In this document: positions 5,590 to 13,902 of the stretch, piece by piece | How the letters are laid out: the number at the start of each line of letters is the position of its first letter | Numbering within the stretch: the first letter of the stretch is position 1 | Source of the DNA: Gammaproteobacteria bacterium | Lineage (GTDB): Bacteria > Pseudomonadota > Gammaproteobacteria > UWMA-0217 | Assembly: GCA_026981985.1 (NCBI GenBank) | Contig: JALSHZ010000091.1 | Location: 1-58,522 of the forward strand | Length of the DNA stretch: 58,522 nt | Reading direction: 5' to 3' | The notes under the pieces: model-generated | The model's database searches: none | The model's input: only the letters and a program-made list of their open reading frames with translations | What the model was told of the DNA's origin: nothing | Position numbers and translations under genes: made by a program

Positions 5590-5892
5590 ATGAAACACTA
5601 TCTGCTAATGGCAATCATGGTCTCGATCGTGATGCTGTATCTTTATCTCAAGGTCACCGGACGCATCCGGCTGTCCGATCTCGATATCGTCCCCGTACTG
5701 GTCATCAAAGCCGTACTTTTTATTGTCAGCGGCGGTTTCTACGCATTACTGATCGCCAAATTCCTTCGCGCCACCCTGGGTTACGATGCCACCCCCCTGT
5801 CAATCGCTATCTACCTGCTGGGAGTCAGTGCTGCATTGATTGCTGCTTTCTATTCGACGCGCTGGTTGACGGATGAGAAGGGGGTCTTTTGA
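5590..5892 (+). CDS. small integral membrane protein, unknown
   Basis: This 100-residue protein has three likely membrane segments (about 4-20, 35-58 and 70-90), separated by short polar loops. The first loop contains LKVTGRIRLSDLDIVP. It ends DEKGVF. I do not recognise a family. It begins 25 bases after ppx in the same direction, without a strong ribosome binding site. It could be the last gene of the ppx unit. It is followed by a long non-coding stretch. Confidence 0.6.
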   Translation: MKHYLLMAIMVSIVMLYLYLKVTGRIRLSDLDIVPVLVIKAVLFIVSGGFYALLIAKFLRATLGYDATPLSIAIYLLGVSAALIAAFYSTRWLTDEKGVF

Positions 5893-6076
5893 TGCTATCT
5901 CGCCGTGGTAAAGAGAGAGTCCATTTGGGAATAGCACACGGTGGGGCTCGGCAGTCGATGAGGCATCCGTGGTTCGTCGAGTGCGGAAAAAAGGGCTTTC
6001 CCGCTTGACTGATGCGCTTGGATCTTATTGATATTTAATCGCTTTCTACTTTTTCCCCCTTCCGTTGTTCATTTGC

Positions 6077-6136
6077 TTTACACCCACGATATCGGTGCAA
6101 TGCTGCTATCCATGGGGCAATCACTCAATGTGTAAA
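6077..6136. promoter_or_regulatory. candidate upstream activator sites
   Basis: TTTACAC (6077-6083) and GTGTAAA (6130-6136) are perfect inverted copies 46 bases apart. Just inside the first is an imperfect palindrome centred on GATATC (CACGATATCGGTG, 6085-6097). They lie about 100-160 bases upstream of the predicted sigma-54 start, the usual distance for enhancer-binding activators. Assignment to the regulator at 12505 is inference. Confidence 0.35.
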
Positions 6137-6210
6137 CATCGTGAACAATGTAGCGCTGATTTTCGTCATCGCTGAAATAGAAAAGCACCAATAAACAACG
6201 ACTTGCATTC

Positions 6211-6227
6211 TTGGCACGACTCCTGCA
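6211..6227 (+). promoter_or_regulatory. sigma-54 (-24/-12) promoter of the Fap-like operon
   Basis: TTGGCACGACTCCTGCA fits the RpoN consensus TTGGCACG-N4-TTGCA. The invariant GG (6213-6214) and GC (6225-6226) are exactly 12 bases apart, as required. Transcription would start near 6238, giving a leader of about 20 bases before the AGGAGG (6247-6252) and ATG (6257). The same cluster encodes a sigma-54 activator with an intact GAFTGA loop, which supports the call. Confidence 0.82.
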
Positions 6228-6256
6228 CTACCAACCAGCAGACACCAGGAGGCGTT

Positions 6257-6919
6257 ATGTCGAGTAATAGCAATATTTTCAGAATTTCATCTGTTGGAAA
6301 GGGTCGAAGGAAATTCGCCGTGGCCCGTGTAGTGTTGTGTTCGGTGCTCGCTATGGCTGGCTGGACACAGTTCGTGGCGGCTGCGGAGCCATACGGCACG
6401 TTGAACGATGCGGCTATTTCCAATGCCGCATTGAGCAATGTCAGTGGCATTGTGGGTGTGAATCAGGCGGCTGGGGATTTCAACCTGCAGGCCAATGCCC
6501 GCGCTATTGCCATTTCGGGCAACGGCCAGGTGAGTGCCGATATTGAGCAGTTTTCTTCTTTAGCGGGGAGCACGGCGGCGGATGTCTCTGTCACCTCGAT
6601 CAAGGACAATGCTTTTCAAAATACATCCGGGCTATTGTCCATCAACCAAGCAAGTGGTTCGGGCAATCTCGAATCCAACACGATTCTTATTTCACCTTAC
6701 ATCCCGCAGGGGGAGCTGTCAGATGATCTTTTGTCACAGGCTTCGCTGGATGTCGCAAGTTTTTCAGACAAGGAGGAGCGTAGTTCTTCAGACACGCTGC
6801 GCACTGTCAATGTGGATGCAACAGCCTTTCGAGGCGTCCGGGGAGTGTTACAACTCAACCAGGCAGCAGGGATGCACAATGTCACACAAAATCGTGTGTT
6901 AATGCAAACCAATGATTAA
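6257..6919 (+). CDS. secreted Fap-type repeat protein (FapB-like)
   Basis: This 220-residue protein starts at ATG 6257 behind a strong AGGAGG. A basic N-region and hydrophobic stretch (about 19-42, ending VAAA) form a Sec signal. Three imperfect copies of one motif follow at about 57-86 (NVSGIVGVNQAAGDFNLQAN), 118-146 (NTSGLLSINQASGSGNLESN) and 189-216 (GVRGVLQLNQAAGMHNVTQN), separated by linkers. This Asn/Gln/Gly pattern and the repeat-linker-repeat layout resemble Pseudomonas FapB/FapC amyloid proteins, as recalled. FapB is the proposed minor or nucleator subunit. The mature protein has no cysteine. It is the first gene after the sigma-54 promoter. Confidence 0.7.
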   Translation: MSSNSNIFRISSVGKGRRKFAVARVVLCSVLAMAGWTQFVAAAEPYGTLNDAAISNAALSNVSGIVGVNQAAGDFNLQANARAIAISGNGQVSADIEQFSSLAGSTAADVSVTSIKDNAFQNTSGLLSINQASGSGNLESNTILISPYIPQGELSDDLLSQASLDVASFSDKEERSSSDTLRTVNVDATAFRGVRGVLQLNQAAGMHNVTQNRVLMQTND

Positions 6920-6945
6920 ACATCAATTCGGGAGATACCACTCTT

Positions 6946-9030
6946 ATGAATATCCAGTATAGAAAATCAGCACTGTCCATTGCCGTTGCGGCCTGCATCT
7001 CCACAACCTCGGTGTTCGCAACCGAAGCCAACGATACGGCCTCGCAAAACAGTGGTGCTGTAGCGGCCCAGGCCATGGCAGTCGTTGCCGATTCGCAACG
7101 CGCTGCAGACAACGACATCATCATCAAGTCGGCAGATAATCAGACCGCGATCGACGGTAACGCGATGGAGAATATCTCAGGCAACATGGGCGTCAATATC
7201 GCTTCAGGTGACAACAACATGCAGGCGAATGCGGCTGCCATTGCAACCGCCAATGCGGATGCTTCCTTCGTCTTCGATGATCCCTCCGCAGAGGTCTATG
7301 TTGAGCAGAGCGTCAACAACAACAGTTTTTCCAGTTCGGGTAGCCGTAATGAAGCCCGACTAGAGGGGCACGCCATCAGCAATGTCACGGGCAACGTCGG
7401 CGCGAACATTGCTTCGGGCAGTTTCAATCTGCAGAAAAACGATTTTTCGGTTTCGATCTCGAACAATGGGTCGGCGTTAGCTGCTGCTGGTGTGCATCAG
7501 GAATCGATTGGCAACAATGTGAAGACTGAGGGTCGCTACGATGTTGTCACCGATACCACGAGCATTACATTGTCGGGCGATGCTGTTGGCTCCTCACAGG
7601 GCAAGGGTCAAGGTTACTATTCCGGCAGTACTAGCGCCGATATCAGTGGTAACGTGAACGCCGATTATCGTGGCAGCGCCGCAGGCGCGACTTCTGCACA
7701 GCTGTCTGGAAACTATGTCGGCATCGAAGCTGGCCAAACCTCGGCCCGCCTGGAAGGTGCTTATAAAGGAAGCGAATATGGCAGCTACCAAGGTACTGAA
7801 TCAGGCAAGACGGCGGCAACCGTCGAAGGCACTTACAATGGATACGCTTATGGGAGAAACACTGACTGGATAAATGGTACCTATGATGGAGAAACCGCGG
7901 GTGCTTATGAAGGCCAGGCGCTTGGTGATACCAAAGGCGATATTTCCGGCAATTACTGGGGCAGTACGCAGGGCGACACCCAGGCGAAGATCGATGGTGG
8001 CTACAAAGGCAATACCGCCGGCACTTATAAGGGCGAACAGGAAGGGAGCACGGAGTCGACTTCGGTCGGCATCTATGGCGGTGTTGCCATAGGCGGGACA
8101 CAATCGCAGTTCAAGGGCAGCTATAACGGTACCCAGGAGGGTTCATACGAGGGTACAGCGAGTGGTACGGAGCAGGGTGCGTATACGGGGACGCATAGCG
8201 TTATAGGTTTCCCAGTGGCAACGGAAACAGGGCAGTATGCTGGTACTTATGAAGGTGAAGAGAGTGGCAGCTACCAAGGCCGCGAAAATGGCTACCTCAG
8301 CGGCAACAGTAGAGGAAGTTATGCAGGTATCGAGGGAGGTGTTACCGCATCGGTAGCCACCGGTGAGTATGAGGGAACAGAGGCTGGTAAGTTCGCGGGA
8401 AAAGAGTCTGGTGTGATCGGCGCTAAAAGTGACGGTAGTTTCACAGGTTCTGAGAAGGGTGAAACGTATTCCACGCTCTACGGCAGCTATGAAGGTAGTG
8501 AATGGGGTAAATACGAAGGTGCCGAGAAAGGCAGGATCTCAGCCACAAGCGAAGGTAACTATGAAGGCAAGGAAGCCGGATCTACATGGGCCGCTTCGGA
8601 AGGGGAATACAAGGGTACAGCGCAAGGAAAATATCGTGGCAAGGAGCAGGGTAAGTTGGCGGCAGACAGCGAAGGTGAGTATGCCGGTATCGCTGCCGGA
8701 ATCACCGAAGCCAGTTCCGAAGGAAAATATGCTGGCAAGGAATCAGGCAGCATCGATGGCACTGTGGACGCAAAAAGTGAAGGTTCAGAGAATGGCTCGC
8801 TCAGCTTCGAGGAGGTCTCGGATATCAGCCTCGCCACCACAATGACCGGTGAAGTCACGAACAAGACCCACATCCTCGTCGACAATGCCGTCAACAAAGT
8901 TGTTCTGGGCGGATATGCGCTGTCCGGAGCCAGTGGTAACATTGGCGTCAACATGGCGTCGGGCAATGGCAACATGCAGGCCAACAGCCTCGCCATCGCA
9001 TCTACGACTGGCAATACCACTGGGCATTGA
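6946..9030 (+). CDS. large secreted Fap-type protein with GxYxG tandem repeats (FapC-like)
   Basis: This 694-residue protein has a signal peptide (1-24, ending TSVFA). Three Fap-type motifs lie at about 72-100 (NISGNMGVNIASGDNNMQAN), 142-171 (NVTGNVGANIASGSFNLQKN) and 657-685 (GASGNIGVNMASGNGNMQAN). Residues about 223-600 are a low-complexity array of about 29 units G-x-[YF]-x-G-x-x-x-G (for example GSYEGSEWG, GKYEGAEKG), becoming more Glu/Lys-rich towards the end. In Fap terms this array occupies the variable linker between repeats 2 and 3. The mature protein has no cysteine. It is the likely structural subunit of an extracellular fibre; that role is inferred. Confidence 0.72.
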   Translation: MNIQYRKSALSIAVAACISTTSVFATEANDTASQNSGAVAAQAMAVVADSQRAADNDIIIKSADNQTAIDGNAMENISGNMGVNIASGDNNMQANAAAIATANADASFVFDDPSAEVYVEQSVNNNSFSSSGSRNEARLEGHAISNVTGNVGANIASGSFNLQKNDFSVSISNNGSALAAAGVHQESIGNNVKTEGRYDVVTDTTSITLSGDAVGSSQGKGQGYYSGSTSADISGNVNADYRGSAAGATSAQLSGNYVGIEAGQTSARLEGAYKGSEYGSYQGTESGKTAATVEGTYNGYAYGRNTDWINGTYDGETAGAYEGQALGDTKGDISGNYWGSTQGDTQAKIDGGYKGNTAGTYKGEQEGSTESTSVGIYGGVAIGGTQSQFKGSYNGTQEGSYEGTASGTEQGAYTGTHSVIGFPVATETGQYAGTYEGEESGSYQGRENGYLSGNSRGSYAGIEGGVTASVATGEYEGTEAGKFAGKESGVIGAKSDGSFTGSEKGETYSTLYGSYEGSEWGKYEGAEKGRISATSEGNYEGKEAGSTWAASEGEYKGTAQGKYRGKEQGKLAADSEGEYAGIAAGITEASSEGKYAGKESGSIDGTVDAKSEGSENGSLSFEEVSDISLATTMTGEVTNKTHILVDNAVNKVVLGGYALSGASGNIGVNMASGNGNMQANSLAIASTTGNTTGH
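7612..8745 (+). repeat. tandem GxYxG-coding repeat array
   Basis: This is the DNA coding residues 223-600 of the large secreted protein. The repeat is conserved mainly at protein level, with unit spacing of about 8 to 18 codons. The DNA copies are diverged, so recent slippage expansion is not obvious. Tyr or Phe recurs at the third position of nearly every unit, with Gly on either side. Confidence 0.85.
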
Positions 9031-9055
9031 TCCACGGTCTGCCTGAGTGAAGGTT

Positions 9056-9078
9056 CGGGGCTGGTTTCTTCAGCCCCG
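9056..9078 (+). terminator. hairpin between fibre gene and C39 peptidase gene
   Basis: CGGGGCTG (9056-9063), a 7-base loop and CAGCCCCG (9071-9078) form a perfect 8-pair stem shortly after the stop at 9030. No T-run follows, so it is not a classical terminator. It could stabilise the upstream mRNA or give partial termination, so that fibre protein is made in excess of the export genes. Confidence 0.5.
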
Positions 9079-9134
9079 GGCTCTCATCACCTGAAATACC
9101 ACTGATATAACAATAATTCTACAAGGTCAGAACA

Positions 9135-9854
9135 ATGCGATTCAAAGCATCCCATCTGTTGTTTCAAGTGTCTCTTTTGTTTGCAGCGTTTGGCATTTTC
9201 CAGGCACCGTCCGCGATTGCGGGCGATATTCTGTTTTCTGGTGTGGCGGCATCCGGCGGGCTTTATTCCGCTCGGGTCGTGAGCATGAACGAGGCCAAGT
9301 ACAAGAATCTTGTTCGCCAGAATACGGACTACAGCTGTGGTGCGGCAGCATTGGCGACGATTCTGAAATATGCCTATGGGCTCGACGCCAATGAAAGGGT
9401 TGTCATGGAAGGTATGCTCGAATCCGGAGATGCTGAACTCGTGCGCCGCAAGGGTTTTTCGATGCTCGACATGAAGCACTATGTCGAATCGTTGGGTTTG
9501 CGAGGCCGAGGTTATCGCTTGTCCGAAACGCGCTTGAAAACCTTGAGAATTCCGGTGGTGGTATTGATGGACATCAACGGCTACAAGCATTTTTCAGTGC
9601 TAAAGCGTATCAGCAATGATGAAGCTTTTTTAGCGGACCCTGTTCTCGGTAACAAGAGGATGTCGTTTGACGAGTTCAGACAAGCCTGGAGCAATCGTGT
9701 TGTCTTTGCCGTCATTGGCAGCGGCTTCGTCAGGGATACCGCATTACTGGAAATTCCATTCAAGCTAACCAGTAGCCATTGGTTGAGGAATAACTCGCCA
9801 CTGGCGGATGCGGAGTTGATGGACTTTGGCTTTACGCATGCAGATCTATTCTGA
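9135..9854 (+). CDS. secreted C39-family peptidase (FapD-like)
   Basis: This 239-residue protein has a signal peptide (1-29, ending PSAIA). The C39 papain-like core follows: QNTDYSCGAAALATIL with oxyanion Gln62 and nucleophile Cys68, His152 in NGYKHFSVLK, and Asp168 in FLADPVLGNKRM. C39 peptidases normally cut double-glycine leaders inside ABC exporters. A stand-alone exported C39 enzyme next to repeat-motif secreted proteins is the arrangement of FapD in the Pseudomonas Fap operon. It probably acts in the periplasm on a cluster protein; its substrate is not known. Confidence 0.82.
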   Translation: MRFKASHLLFQVSLLFAAFGIFQAPSAIAGDILFSGVAASGGLYSARVVSMNEAKYKNLVRQNTDYSCGAAALATILKYAYGLDANERVVMEGMLESGDAELVRRKGFSMLDMKHYVESLGLRGRGYRLSETRLKTLRIPVVVLMDINGYKHFSVLKRISNDEAFLADPVLGNKRMSFDEFRQAWSNRVVFAVIGSGFVRDTALLEIPFKLTSSHWLRNNSPLADAELMDFGFTHADLF

Positions 9855-9865
9855 GGAAAATGATC

Positions 9866-10660
9866 ATGAAAAGCATAAAAGAAACGATTGCGCCGTTTTT
9901 TCTAGGAGTTGCAATAACAAGCGTCGCATCAGTGTCACTGGCAGCGCCGGGGGATGGCGGGGTGGGTCAGGGGATTTCAGTCCTGACCAGCCCGGAGATG
10001 GCGACGATACGAGGGAAATACGTGGTTGCATCGGATACGGTACTCTACTTCGGGGTCGAAATGGCCAGTGTGTGGAGAACGCAGGACGGGCAGCAGTTGC
10101 AGGGTGGCGCACGCCTGGGGCTCGATTTCTCCGGTGGTGCATCGCCAACGGTGAGTTTCTCGCCTACGGTGAGTATTTTATCCGGGACTGGCCGAGGGAC
10201 AGCGATCGACACCAGTAATCGCACCGTGAATTCATCCGGAATCGACAACGTCACCGGCTTGGGTCAGAGCATCCAGGTTGCGGGCGATTTCAATACGGCA
10301 TCGAATACGCTCAGCGTACGACTTTTGGACAAGCTTCCGGAGAACCGCGGTCAGGGTGTCGGGGAATCGCTTGCCGTCAGCGACGGCGCGGGTGGGTCGG
10401 CAACTGCGGCCCTCAATGACAAGGGAATGATGGTCACACTGTCGCTCGACGGGCAGGGGGTTGTTCAGCAATCCATTCGCGGTGCGCTTCGTGATGGTGC
10501 CCGTACCGGCAACGGTGCGTTTCAGTCGATCAAGACATTGGGGGACTCGCATACGATCTCCAATCGAATGCAGCTCTCAATTCTGATGAAACCCCGTGCA
10601 GAGTCGGCCAATCTGAGTAAGACGCTTGGCGTTTCATTGGGCGGTCTGCGAGGATTGTAG
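9866..10660 (+). CDS. secreted protein with degenerate Fap-type motif (FapE-like)
   Basis: This 264-residue protein has a signal peptide (about 1-28, ending SVSLAA). ATG 9866 sits 9 bases after gagg; ATG 9860 is only 3 bases from it. The mature part is Gly/Ser-rich and predicted beta-rich. Residues 123-152 (GIDNVTGLGQSIQVAGDFNT, then ASNTLSVRL) resemble the fibre motif of the two proteins upstream, and DSHTISNRMQL may be a second partial copy. Position between the C39 gene and the outer-membrane channel is that of fapE. It has no cysteine. A minor fibre component or assembly factor is inferred. Confidence 0.55.
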   Translation: MKSIKETIAPFFLGVAITSVASVSLAAPGDGGVGQGISVLTSPEMATIRGKYVVASDTVLYFGVEMASVWRTQDGQQLQGGARLGLDFSGGASPTVSFSPTVSILSGTGRGTAIDTSNRTVNSSGIDNVTGLGQSIQVAGDFNTASNTLSVRLLDKLPENRGQGVGESLAVSDGAGGSATAALNDKGMMVTLSLDGQGVVQQSIRGALRDGARTGNGAFQSIKTLGDSHTISNRMQLSILMKPRAESANLSKTLGVSLGGLRGL

Positions 10661-10778
10661 CCTACGCAAGGTTTGGCGTTGATACATTGCCTTCTTGCGG
10701 CGGAAAGGGAATTCGTGGATGTGGGAGTGAAGGAATCACACGCTCGCATCTCATATTTGGACGTACAGGCTAACAGAA

Positions 10779-12182
10779 ATGGAATTCAAACTAGGTATAG
10801 GCGTGGCAGTGCTCGTGTCATGTATGGTGATGCAGGTCGCCACTCCGGTCGGCGCGGAAGAGGCCGAGGATCGGCCGATTTTTCTGGATCAGCCTCCCAG
10901 GGAGGCTGGTGACGGACATCCCGAGAAAGCATCCCCAGTCGATCCCGTCGCCAGGCAGAAGGTCACGCACAAGAAAGATAGCGATACGCCACGGGTTTCC
11001 AATGAGTCGTCGGCAGATCTACGCCAGGAAATGTTGCTGCTACGCAAGCAGTACAGTGAGGATCTCAAAAAACTGCGTGATCTCGATTTGCGCTTGAAGG
11101 CATTGGGGGGTGGCAATGGACCGGCTTTGGCGAAGCCGGGAAACGCCGCTGCGGCGGCTGCCCGGAATAATCCGGTTCGAGTGGGTGTCGACAAAAAGAA
11201 GGCCAGTGAGGTGGCAGGAATTTCTCGCAATGTGGAGGATCTGCTGCAGGTCGAGCATCCTTCGTTTGATCAGACATTCACCCTGGAATCTGCGATCAAC
11301 TACAGCCGCTACGACAGGACGCAAGTGACGCTGAATGGTTTCCTCGCGCTGGATGCGATCTTTCTGGGCAATCTGGCTGTTGAGGGTGTCGCCTCCGATA
11401 CGCTGACTTATTCACTGACGGGCCGATATGGTTTCAATGAGCGTCTGGTGTTCAACTTGTCGACACCGTTTGTCTATCGCAAGACGATCTATGCCAAAGG
11501 TGGCGTAGGAGGCGTTGCCTCGGCCAATTCCGAAACCGATGTGACGCGTGATGCAGCGCTTGGGGATGTGTCGCTTGGCATGAGCTATCGCCTGTTTCCT
11601 GCTAGCAAGGCAGCCGATTGGGTCTGGAACGTCGATATTACCGCGCCGACCGGGGAACATCCTTATGGCGTTCCTGTGCGGGTCGTGGAAAAAGATGCCG
11701 AAGGCGTGACCACATTTTCGGTGCCGCGGGACCTGCCGACCGGCAGCGGCATCTGGTCACTCAATACCGGGGTTTCGTTTGTCAAAACCAGTGACCCGGC
11801 GATACTGTTCGGTAACTTTGGCATCGGCTACAACCGATCGCAATCGTTTGCGGACGTTGATTCTGATCCCAACACCAGAACTCGCGGGGACATCAACCTC
11901 GGAAATTCGGTCAACTACGGTTTTGGCATGGCCATTGCCATGAACGAAACTACCAGCCTGAGCCTGTCGTTCAGTCACAAACTGGCGCAGAAGACCAAAA
12001 CCCGCAGTGCAGGCGGCCCTTGGACCAACGTGATTGGCAGCGATGCCAACTCAGCCATGTTCAATGTCGGCATTACCCAGGGGCTGGGCAGCCACTGGTC
12101 CATCGCAGGCACCGTGGGTGTCGGTTTGACGGATGATGCACCCGACTTCACCTTTGGACTACGGTTGCCATATCGTTTTTAG
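10779..12182 (+). CDS. outer-membrane channel with coiled-coil N-terminus (FapF-like)
   Basis: This 467-residue protein has a signal peptide (about 1-26, ending PVGA), a polar linker, a heptad-like helix at about 79-109 (LRQEMLLLRKQYSEDLKKLR) and a Gly/Ala/Asn linker. From about 175 alternating hydrophobic/aromatic strands run to the terminal Phe of RLPYRF, a typical outer-membrane beta-signal. FapF is a trimeric barrel with an N-terminal coiled coil that exports Fap amyloids. The same domain order and operon position suggest the same role. Alternative annotation would be a generic MetA-type transporter-like porin. Confidence 0.72.
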   Translation: MEFKLGIGVAVLVSCMVMQVATPVGAEEAEDRPIFLDQPPREAGDGHPEKASPVDPVARQKVTHKKDSDTPRVSNESSADLRQEMLLLRKQYSEDLKKLRDLDLRLKALGGGNGPALAKPGNAAAAAARNNPVRVGVDKKKASEVAGISRNVEDLLQVEHPSFDQTFTLESAINYSRYDRTQVTLNGFLALDAIFLGNLAVEGVASDTLTYSLTGRYGFNERLVFNLSTPFVYRKTIYAKGGVGGVASANSETDVTRDAALGDVSLGMSYRLFPASKAADWVWNVDITAPTGEHPYGVPVRVVEKDAEGVTTFSVPRDLPTGSGIWSLNTGVSFVKTSDPAILFGNFGIGYNRSQSFADVDSDPNTRTRGDINLGNSVNYGFGMAIAMNETTSLSLSFSHKLAQKTKTRSAGGPWTNVIGSDANSAMFNVGITQGLGSHWSIAGTVGVGLTDDAPDFTFGLRLPYRF

Positions 12183-12183
12183 C

Positions 12184-12330
12184 CGGTAACTACTCAGCTT
12201 CCCCCCTTATTTGCGCCAACTCTGCGTTGGAAGTGCTCATTTACACTTGTAAACTCCGCGCTTCCGCCTTGATTTGACGCAAAACGGGGGCAATCTGAGC
12301 AGTTACGGGCATTGCGCTGAGTAGTTACCG
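12184..12330. repeat. 147-base element with 15-base perfect inverted ends
   Basis: CGGTAACTACTCAGC (12184-12198) is the exact complement of GCTGAGTAGTTACCG (12316-12330). An internal near-copy of the right end (CTGAGCAGTTACGG) starts at 12295, and the middle contains TTTACACTTGTAAA-type dyads. The layout suggests a non-coding mobile or extragenic palindromic repeat of MITE type, located between the outer-membrane channel gene and its regulator. It may also end transcription of the operon. Confidence 0.65.
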
Positions 12331-12504: not shown

Positions 12505-13902
12505 ATGGCAACTGCGCACAATCCAGTATCGGCTCGTCGCCGCATTCTTTGCCTTGGAGGTTGTGAAGGGGCGCTGCAGCGTTTGTTGCCGCCTGATCAG
12601 TGGGAATTGGTTTCTGCGGACAGCCTGAAAGCACTACGGCTGGCGGCCAGTGACCGTGATATCCGTGTGATGGTAGCCGCGATAGGATTCGACAACGCCA
12701 AAACGCTTGAACTTGCTGAGGAGCTGCTGTTCGAGCGCCGGGACATCCGGGCTGTTGGCATCATCGAACCTGGCACCCTCGAGCAAACTCGGCTGCGGCG
12801 CGCGCTGAGCAGGCTGTTCTTCGACTTTCTCACCATGCCGCTATTACCCGAAGCGGTGCAATACGCCATTGGTCATGCCTATGGCATGGCGTCGATTTCC
12901 TGTTGTGGTGGTCAATCAGAGAAGTGCATTTCACCCGTGGCGTCCAGCTACAAGCTGTTTGGGCGAAGCGACATCATGGTGGCGCTAAGGGAGCGAATCT
13001 CCCGCATCAGCACATCCGACGCACCGGTGATGATCGGTGGTGAATCAGGTACCGGAAAGGAACTCGCTGCACGGAATGTTCATGCCGAATCCGACCGTTG
13101 TGACGAACCATTCGTTGCAGTGAATATGGCGGCGATTCCCGAAAATCTGGTGCAGACCGAGTTGTTTGGCCATGAAAAAGGGGCATTCACCGGTGCTGCT
13201 CAGCAACGTATCGGGCATATCGAGTCAGCCCATGGTGGGACGCTTTTTCTTGACGAGATTGGCGACCTGCCGCTGCAAAGCCAGGGTAACTTGTTGCGGT
13301 TTCTCCAGGAGGGCGTCATCACCAGGGTAGGTGGCTCACAGTTGATCAAGGTTGATGTGAGGGTGATCACGGCGACGCACATCGACCTTGAAGAAGCTGT
13401 CGCTGCGGGCCGCTTTCGTGAAGATCTCTATTACCGACTCAACGTATTGCAGCTGGAAATGCCCCCGCTACGTGATCGGGGGAGCGACATTGCCTATCTG
13501 GCGGAGCGTTTCTTCGAACAGTTTTGCGCCCGCTCACGTTGCTGCGCCAAGGGTTTGAGTCAGCGCTCGCTCGCTGTAATGAAGGAGCACGACTGGCCTG
13601 GGAACGTGCGAGAAATGCTCAATCGCATACAGCGTGCAGTGGTCATGTGTACAGGGCAGTTGATCCATCCCGAAGACCTGGGGCTGGAACGACGTGAATC
13701 GTCCAGAAAGCTCGAAACACTCGCCGAAGCACGTGCCAGGGTGGAAAAACAACTGCTCCGCACGGCTTTGATCGACAGTAACTACAATCTGTCAGAAGCG
13801 TCGCGCTTGCTGGGGACGTCTCGGGTCACGCTGTACAAGCTGATTGACAAACATGGCATTCAAAGCAGCCCGGGGCGAGAGGTGACGTCTGACGTCGCAT
13901 AG
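12505..13902 (+). CDS. sigma-54 activator of the VpsR/FleQ type
   Basis: This 465-residue protein has an N-terminal receiver-like domain (1-130) with no Asp at the expected phospho-acceptor strand (IRVMVAAIGFDNA). Its end resembles VpsR (FFDFLTMPLLPEAVQYAIGH). The AAA+ domain has Walker A GESGTGKE (179-186), an intact GAFTGA loop (226-231), GGTLFLDEIGDLP and the WPGNVRE sensor region. A Fis-type HTH closes it (NLSEASRLLGTSRVTLYKLI). GAFTGA is the sigma-54 contact, so it should act at RpoN promoters; the only near-consensus one nearby is 6211. VpsR and FleQ bind c-di-GMP; that input is inferred here. Several Cys (CCGG, RSRCCAK) are unusual. Confidence 0.88.
   Translation: MATAHNPVSARRRILCLGGCEGALQRLLPPDQWELVSADSLKALRLAASDRDIRVMVAAIGFDNAKTLELAEELLFERRDIRAVGIIEPGTLEQTRLRRALSRLFFDFLTMPLLPEAVQYAIGHAYGMASISCCGGQSEKCISPVASSYKLFGRSDIMVALRERISRISTSDAPVMIGGESGTGKELAARNVHAESDRCDEPFVAVNMAAIPENLVQTELFGHEKGAFTGAAQQRIGHIESAHGGTLFLDEIGDLPLQSQGNLLRFLQEGVITRVGGSQLIKVDVRVITATHIDLEEAVAAGRFREDLYYRLNVLQLEMPPLRDRGSDIAYLAERFFEQFCARSRCCAKGLSQRSLAVMKEHDWPGNVREMLNRIQRAVVMCTGQLIHPEDLGLERRESSRKLETLAEARARVEKQLLRTALIDSNYNLSEASRLLGTSRVTLYKLIDKHGIQSSPGREVTSDVA

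Follow-up and report, generated by a model that had tools for sequence, protein, structure and literature searches.

The window analyzed here, a 58,522-nucleotide (58.5 kb) contig of a gammaproteobacterial genome (GenBank JALSHZ010000091.1), carries at 6257-12182 an operon whose NCBIfam and Pfam profile matches and gene order (B-C-D-E-F) mark it as the functional-amyloid operon fapBCDEF, an identity that the first-pass annotation had missed. This operon is probably served by a sigma-54 promoter driven by the linked bacterial enhancer-binding protein (bEBP) P0006 through two upstream dyads, with cyclic di-guanosine monophosphate (c-di-GMP) as the likely signal. The elements of this putative circuit are as follows.

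6211-6227, forward strand: TTGGCACGACTCCTGCA, predicted -24/-12 promoter for sigma-54 ahead of fap, from consensus score and shuffles
6066-6082, forward strand: candidate upstream activator site 1, TGTTCATTTGCTTTACA, a TGT-N11-ACA dyad centered 139 bp upstream of the -24 GG
6131-6147, reverse strand: candidate upstream activator site 2, TGTTCACGATGTTTACA, a TGT-N11-ACA dyad centered 74 bp upstream of the -24 GG
12505-13902, forward strand: P0006, a BrfA/BerB-type bEBP with a VpsR-like N-domain, an AAA+ domain with GAFTGA, and a Fis-type helix-turn-helix (HTH), from Pfam, alignment, and a tree

First, the predicted promoter sequence, read directly, placed GG at 6213-6214 and GC at 6225-6226 with correct spacing, 30 nt before the fapB ATG at 6257, and matched 12 of the 13 specified positions of YTGGCACG-N4-TTGCW, a consensus that reportedly comes from Barrios et al. 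As the best and only site scoring at least 12 on either strand of the window, it agreed with the first-pass call of a consensus sigma-54 promoter. Because order-1 shuffles of the window gave 0.38 expected sites at score 12 (0.017 at score 13), the motif taken alone stands out only mildly; for the kilobase ahead of the fapB open reading frame (ORF), a score of at least 11 arose in 2.0% of shuffles. Genome-wide, TGGCACG-N5-TGCA occurred three times, versus two for a reversed control, and the case for the promoter is therefore carried by context and conservation. A looser pattern that allowed two mismatches gave 91 matches in the window versus 83 expected and was of no use alone.

Conservation was assessed in a comparison set of 55 regions from sampled genomes together with named loci. 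Sampling of the class, meaning Gammaproteobacteria in the GTDB sense, covered 369 genomes, 34 of which had FapF-family matches (E 1e-20 or better), and FapF at E 1e-100 was present in 32 of 119 genomes of a Pseudomonadaceae-like family recognized solely because it has a FleQ match at 93% identity. In the genus initially taken to be Pseudomonas-like, 56 genomes contained no FapF at E 1e-100, and one contig scan with a single FapF returned just four loci. In the 1 kb before the first fap gene, sense sigma-54 sites scoring at least 11 were found in 16 of 40 loci, versus 1.39 expected by shuffles; the 40 were all of the loci with a first fap ORF and at least 200 bp upstream (38 distinct, the two duplicates carrying no sigma-54 site). 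The same test on other genes of these loci gave 16/362 (Fisher p 9e-10), and none of the 362 reached a score of 12. Many Pseudomonadaceae entries had weaker sites at a constant distance of ~520 nt. The genome of the window carries one rpoN gene, and we read 6211-6227 as a real sigma-54 promoter of fapBCDEF, one that would depend on RpoN.

Second, a dyad of the form TGTNTCA-N4-TGANACA recurred upstream of fap promoters. TGTTTCA-N4-TGAAACA, with at most two mismatches, was present in 18 of 40 regions, each hand-picked as holding the best sense site in the vicinity of fap or Fil-like genes (shuffle mean 0.00), a post hoc count because the word was found in the same regions. At least two TGT-N11/12-ACA cores preceded 25 of these 40 selected promoters, versus 0.30 expected and 29 of 2,915 tiles taken as background from these loci. 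The selection left out loci with no recognizable site (for example L072, L081, L084, L088, L134, L139, and L141) and included close relatives (L073/L104/L105; L076-L078/L107; 17 Pseudomonadaceae). A fairer test than the shuffle counts was the transfer of an operator matrix trained on the 17 Pseudomonadaceae loci, which gave p <=0.02 in 16 of 22 other promoters and missed those of L087 (0.07), L091 (0.77), L095a (0.05), L095b (0.25), L099 (0.62), and L113 (0.87).

In the window, the occurrence of two TGT-N11-ACA cores in the upstream region had P=0.0115. Of the 36 regions having a core, 19 had the nearest one starting 78-82 nt ahead of the promoter (16/17 Pseudomonadaceae and 3/19 others, the window being among these three), and the distance from the nearest dyad center to the -24 GG was 74.0 bp in the window and 73.5 bp in Pseudomonas locus L129. 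The word TGTTCA-N5-TTTACA, defined from the two window sites, occurred twice in the 3.35 Mb genome, both times at the fap promoter; the first-pass idea that this promoter is the sole target of P0006 stays a conjecture. Operator forms of 17 nt were also present in L087, L095, and L076. We read the window dyads as a drifted form of the same operator, to which P0006 may bind. Searches of open-licence papers listed no description of the conserved dyad; we do not claim that it is unpublished, and its wide conservation may be new.

Third, three domains were recognized in P0006, for sigma-54 activation, a Fis-type HTH, and Pfam VpsR (E 9.8e-7; 29 bits, above the cut-off of 23.7). Its Walker A sequence (GESGTGKE at 179) and GAFTGA (226-231) are intact, and Ala59 stands in the column where most control receivers hold the phospho-acceptor Asp. 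These features bear out an earlier description of the protein as a VpsR-like activator that keeps GAFTGA and has a receiver-like domain with no acceptor Asp, and the accompanying statement that VpsR itself lacks GAFTGA agrees with a published report (PMC3162934). Thus, with Ala59 and no acceptor Asp, P0006 does not fit a phosphorylated NtrC-type response regulator, and with GAFTGA undisrupted it does not fit the sigma-54-independent VpsR type. As a single sequence, its N-domain found no match in the PDB; a profile of 30 linked regulators found VpsR there.

Fourth, within the stretch examined per locus, a BrfA-type regulator lay beside fap in 37 of 38 fapE-bearing loci, or 35/36 distinct loci when L075/L104 and L077/L106, each the same locus from two sources, are counted once. 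The sole exception was L072, whose genome has a second fap locus (L081) with the regulator; loci with no detected fapE had it in 12 of 23 cases. In a tree of 53 bEBPs, 46 linked regulators (the window's and a Burkholderia cenocepacia protein included) stood apart from seven controls, six of them from the window's own genome and one FleQ, with a Shimodaira-Hasegawa-like approximate likelihood ratio test (SH-aLRT) support of 98; this tree does not resolve the place of P0006 inside the linked clade. With small variants, the linked regulators share an HTH helix, SRxTxYRL, absent from the controls, which reads SRVTLYKL at 439 in P0006, with K where most have R. The clade mostly keeps GAFTGA and has VpsR-type N-domains, and PF20161 (VpsR) matched 27 of the 30 members scanned (best E 5.8e-27). 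Operon context, the paired operator, and this near-universal linkage in relatives uphold the earlier pairing of the promoter with the linked regulator.

Individual loci showed further variation. An Asp occupies the acceptor column in the linked regulators of L073, L074, L105, L076, L077, L078, L081, L107, and L112 (L106 being the L077 locus). The fap-linked regulator at L082:1992-3338 has GAFTD in place of GAFTG, and the best sigma-54 site of the neighboring fap operon is weak (10/13); it is possibly a natural, VpsR-like switch away from sigma-54. GAFTDA has been reported for VfmH (PMC10714721). L085, L086, L087, L089, L095, L096, and L099 contain FapD- and FapF-like (Fil-like) genes and no fapE, with the same regulator type, and strong sigma-54 sites (12-13/13) follow TGT-N11/12-ACA pairs in L087, L089, and L095, twice over in the last. 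L107 comes from Pseudoxanthomonas sp. NC8; the frames of its fapC, fapF, and regulator genes are broken up into several ORFs, reflecting either a decaying locus or sequencing errors. The L112 (B. cenocepacia, 3.2 Mb) and L113 (Aeromonas caviae, 4.9 Mb) records are filed as plasmids and are chromosome-sized.

The mechanism suggested by these features would run as follows. P0006 would bind the TGT-N11-ACA dyads at 6066-6082 and 6131-6147, loop to RpoN-polymerase at 6211-6227, and use its GAFTGA loop and ATP hydrolysis to open the promoter. The receiver-like domain of P0006 would not be phosphorylated in the usual way. The first-pass annotation put forward c-di-GMP by family precedent, and this does appear to be the likeliest ligand, BrfA and BerB being closer precedents than VpsR; with this molecule as the likely signal, amyloid matrix would be switched on when c-di-GMP is high.

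This mechanism has direct precedent, and the window finding is therefore of a known kind. In Pseudomonas fluorescens PF07, the fapA start determined by 5' rapid amplification of cDNA ends (5'-RACE) is reported to have a -24/-12 element, and rpoN and brfA deletions are reported to lower fap expression (PMC9207406). Like the window, the PF07 circuit combines a -24/-12 fap promoter with a bEBP gene beside fapF, and c-di-GMP is the reported signal there, BrfA being stated to sense it directly (PMC13101488), whereas for P0006 we infer it. Pseudomonadaceae fap-linked regulators are 41-46% identical to P0006, and the nearest candidate operator has the same spacing. Unlike PF07, the window locus has no fapA that we could see, a gene reported as often missing from fap systems (PMC3792158), and its regulator gene follows fapF in the same direction rather than convergently; its candidate operators are 17-nt TGT-N11-ACA rather than 18-nt forms, and its N-domain motif has diverged, as we discuss below.

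The B. cenocepacia protein in L112 is in all probability BerB: given an inferred start at the 39th codon read, its GAFTGA lies at residue 208, the position published for BerB. It belongs to the same clade as P0006 and is 41% identical to it over 98%, but the reported target of BerB, a c-di-GMP binder, is berA in an exopolysaccharide cascade (PMC5552954), not an amyloid operon as in the window. VpsR of Vibrio cholerae (PDB 7v2b, 7y19) is homologous in its N-domain and AAA+ domain (family profile E 1.6e-100 and 1.8e-14) but differs from P0006 in having no GAFTGA (PMC3162934) and in reportedly working without sigma-54 (PMC5552954). FleQ of Pseudomonas is, like P0006, a bEBP with GAFTGA, and binds c-di-GMP, but sits on a separate tree branch with a different HTH. 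Its linker residue Arg144 aligns with Tyr149 of P0006, and the Arg is also missing in Pseudomonadaceae fap-linked regulators and the probable BerB; FleQ-type c-di-GMP residues were not diagnostic as a test of P0006. Overall, the window circuit is well supported as a further example of the published BrfA/RpoN/fap kind rather than a new kind of circuit.

Several observations weigh against control of fap by P0006 as proposed. The NCBIfam scores of fapB through fapF are all under curated cut-offs, and 24 of the 40 sampled fap loci had no sigma-54 match scoring 11 or more. On the Pseudomonadaceae-trained matrix, the window's 17-mer dyads scored at chance (p=0.72), and an unbiased inverted-repeat test of the region was not significant (66/300 shuffles at length 21), so that the operator claim rests on comparison. 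Among the 47 linked regulators that have a residue at the acceptor column, 10 carry Asp (0/20 Pseudomonadaceae entries; the probable BerB is one of the 10). Loss of phosphorylation is therefore not the rule of the whole clade, in part of which phosphorylation may persist. Finally, the family N-domain motif FxDxHTLPxD reads FFDFLTMPLL in P0006, whose ligand may therefore differ.

This diverged motif, the weak VpsR match of P0006 relative to the best clade member, and a report that BerB is also bound by RpfR (PMC9684580) all favor the same circuit with a signal other than c-di-GMP, in which another ligand, partner proteins, or the abundance of the regulator itself would gate activity. As BrfA, BerB, and VpsR are all reported c-di-GMP binders, we consider this alternative unlikely, if a serious one. 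We regard it as very improbable that fap has a genuine sigma-54 promoter activated by a different bEBP encoded in the genome, for instance the FleQ-like paralogue at C86. Candidates do exist, with 17 Sigma54_activat matches in the genome (12 strong, E 7e-39 or better, the rest weak), and L001 groups with FleQ (support 100), but a FleQ-like HTH is unlike the fap-linked HTH, and both the BrfA-type gene beside fap and the operators are conserved among fap loci. It is scarcely credible that the sigma-54 match is due to chance, with fap read from an unrelated sigma-70 promoter and the dyads coincidental, for even with 0.38 such sites expected per window and operator variants that fail the trained matrix, the site stands before fapB, no sigma-70-like site was listed upstream of fapB from 5850 to 6257, sigma-54 sites are enriched in other fap loci, and the dyad geometry matches that of Pseudomonas.

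The remaining features of the locus, downstream of the predicted sigma-54 promoter, are listed here.

6247-6252, forward strand: Shine-Dalgarno sequence AGGAGG of fapB, by direct reading
6257-6919, forward strand: gene for a minor amyloid subunit resembling FapB, P0001 (NCBIfam FapB E 1.5e-30, under the curated cut-off)
6946-9030, forward strand: gene for a major amyloid subunit resembling FapC, its linker repeats long and Gly-rich, P0002 (NCBIfam FapC E 1.8e-46, under the cut-off)
9135-9854, forward strand: fapD C39 peptidase, P0003 (passes the Pfam C39 cut-off with E 1e-21; NCBIfam FapD E 1.2e-78, under the cut-off)
9860-10660, forward strand: fapE-like gene, P0004 (NCBIfam FapE E 9.7e-21, below cut-off)
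10779-12182, forward strand: fapF, for the amyloid transporter of the outer membrane, P0005 (NCBIfam FapF E 6e-108, under the cut-off)
12185-12328, no strand assigned: copy of a dispersed repeat, bounded by terminal inverted repeats, in the gap separating fapF from the regulator gene, from repeat matches across genomes

The FapC-like protein has 694 amino acids, several hundred of them in short Gly-rich linker repeats of the GxYxGxxxG type, versus 321 positions in the NCBIfam FapC model. The element at 12185-12328 (~144 bp, with 15-nt terminal inverted repeats) had 59 matches in its own genome and 46 in a genome of the same genus; three other members of the family had 40, 3, and 0. It is a dispersed repeat resembling miniature inverted-repeat transposable elements or repetitive extragenic palindromes. 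An Rfam scan of the window gave no matches. Relatives G001 and G003 retain ppx (L165, L166) with no fap gene after it within the stretch examined, and a FapF search of both genomes at E 1e-20 gave no match; the fap operon therefore looks accessory in the window's own family.

A broader interpretation, which we offer as doubtful, is that one VpsR-type sigma-54 activator lineage stayed linked to Fap (and many Fil-like) secretion loci across Gammaproteobacteria together with a shared enhancer code of two or three TGT-N11/12-ACA dyads, of which the closest often lies ~74 bp ahead of the -24 element. The window's operator, one base shorter, and its sensor would then have drifted, and P0006 may recognize operators of another shape and, perhaps, respond to another signal. 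For this uncharacterized bacterium, an isolated promoter match becomes a testable biofilm-amyloid circuit. The signature of a sigma-54 site, spaced TGT-N11/12-ACA dyads, and a linked GAFTGA regulator can be used to spot Fap and Fil-like loci and the way they are controlled, and should be useful in genomes with no prior work on regulation.
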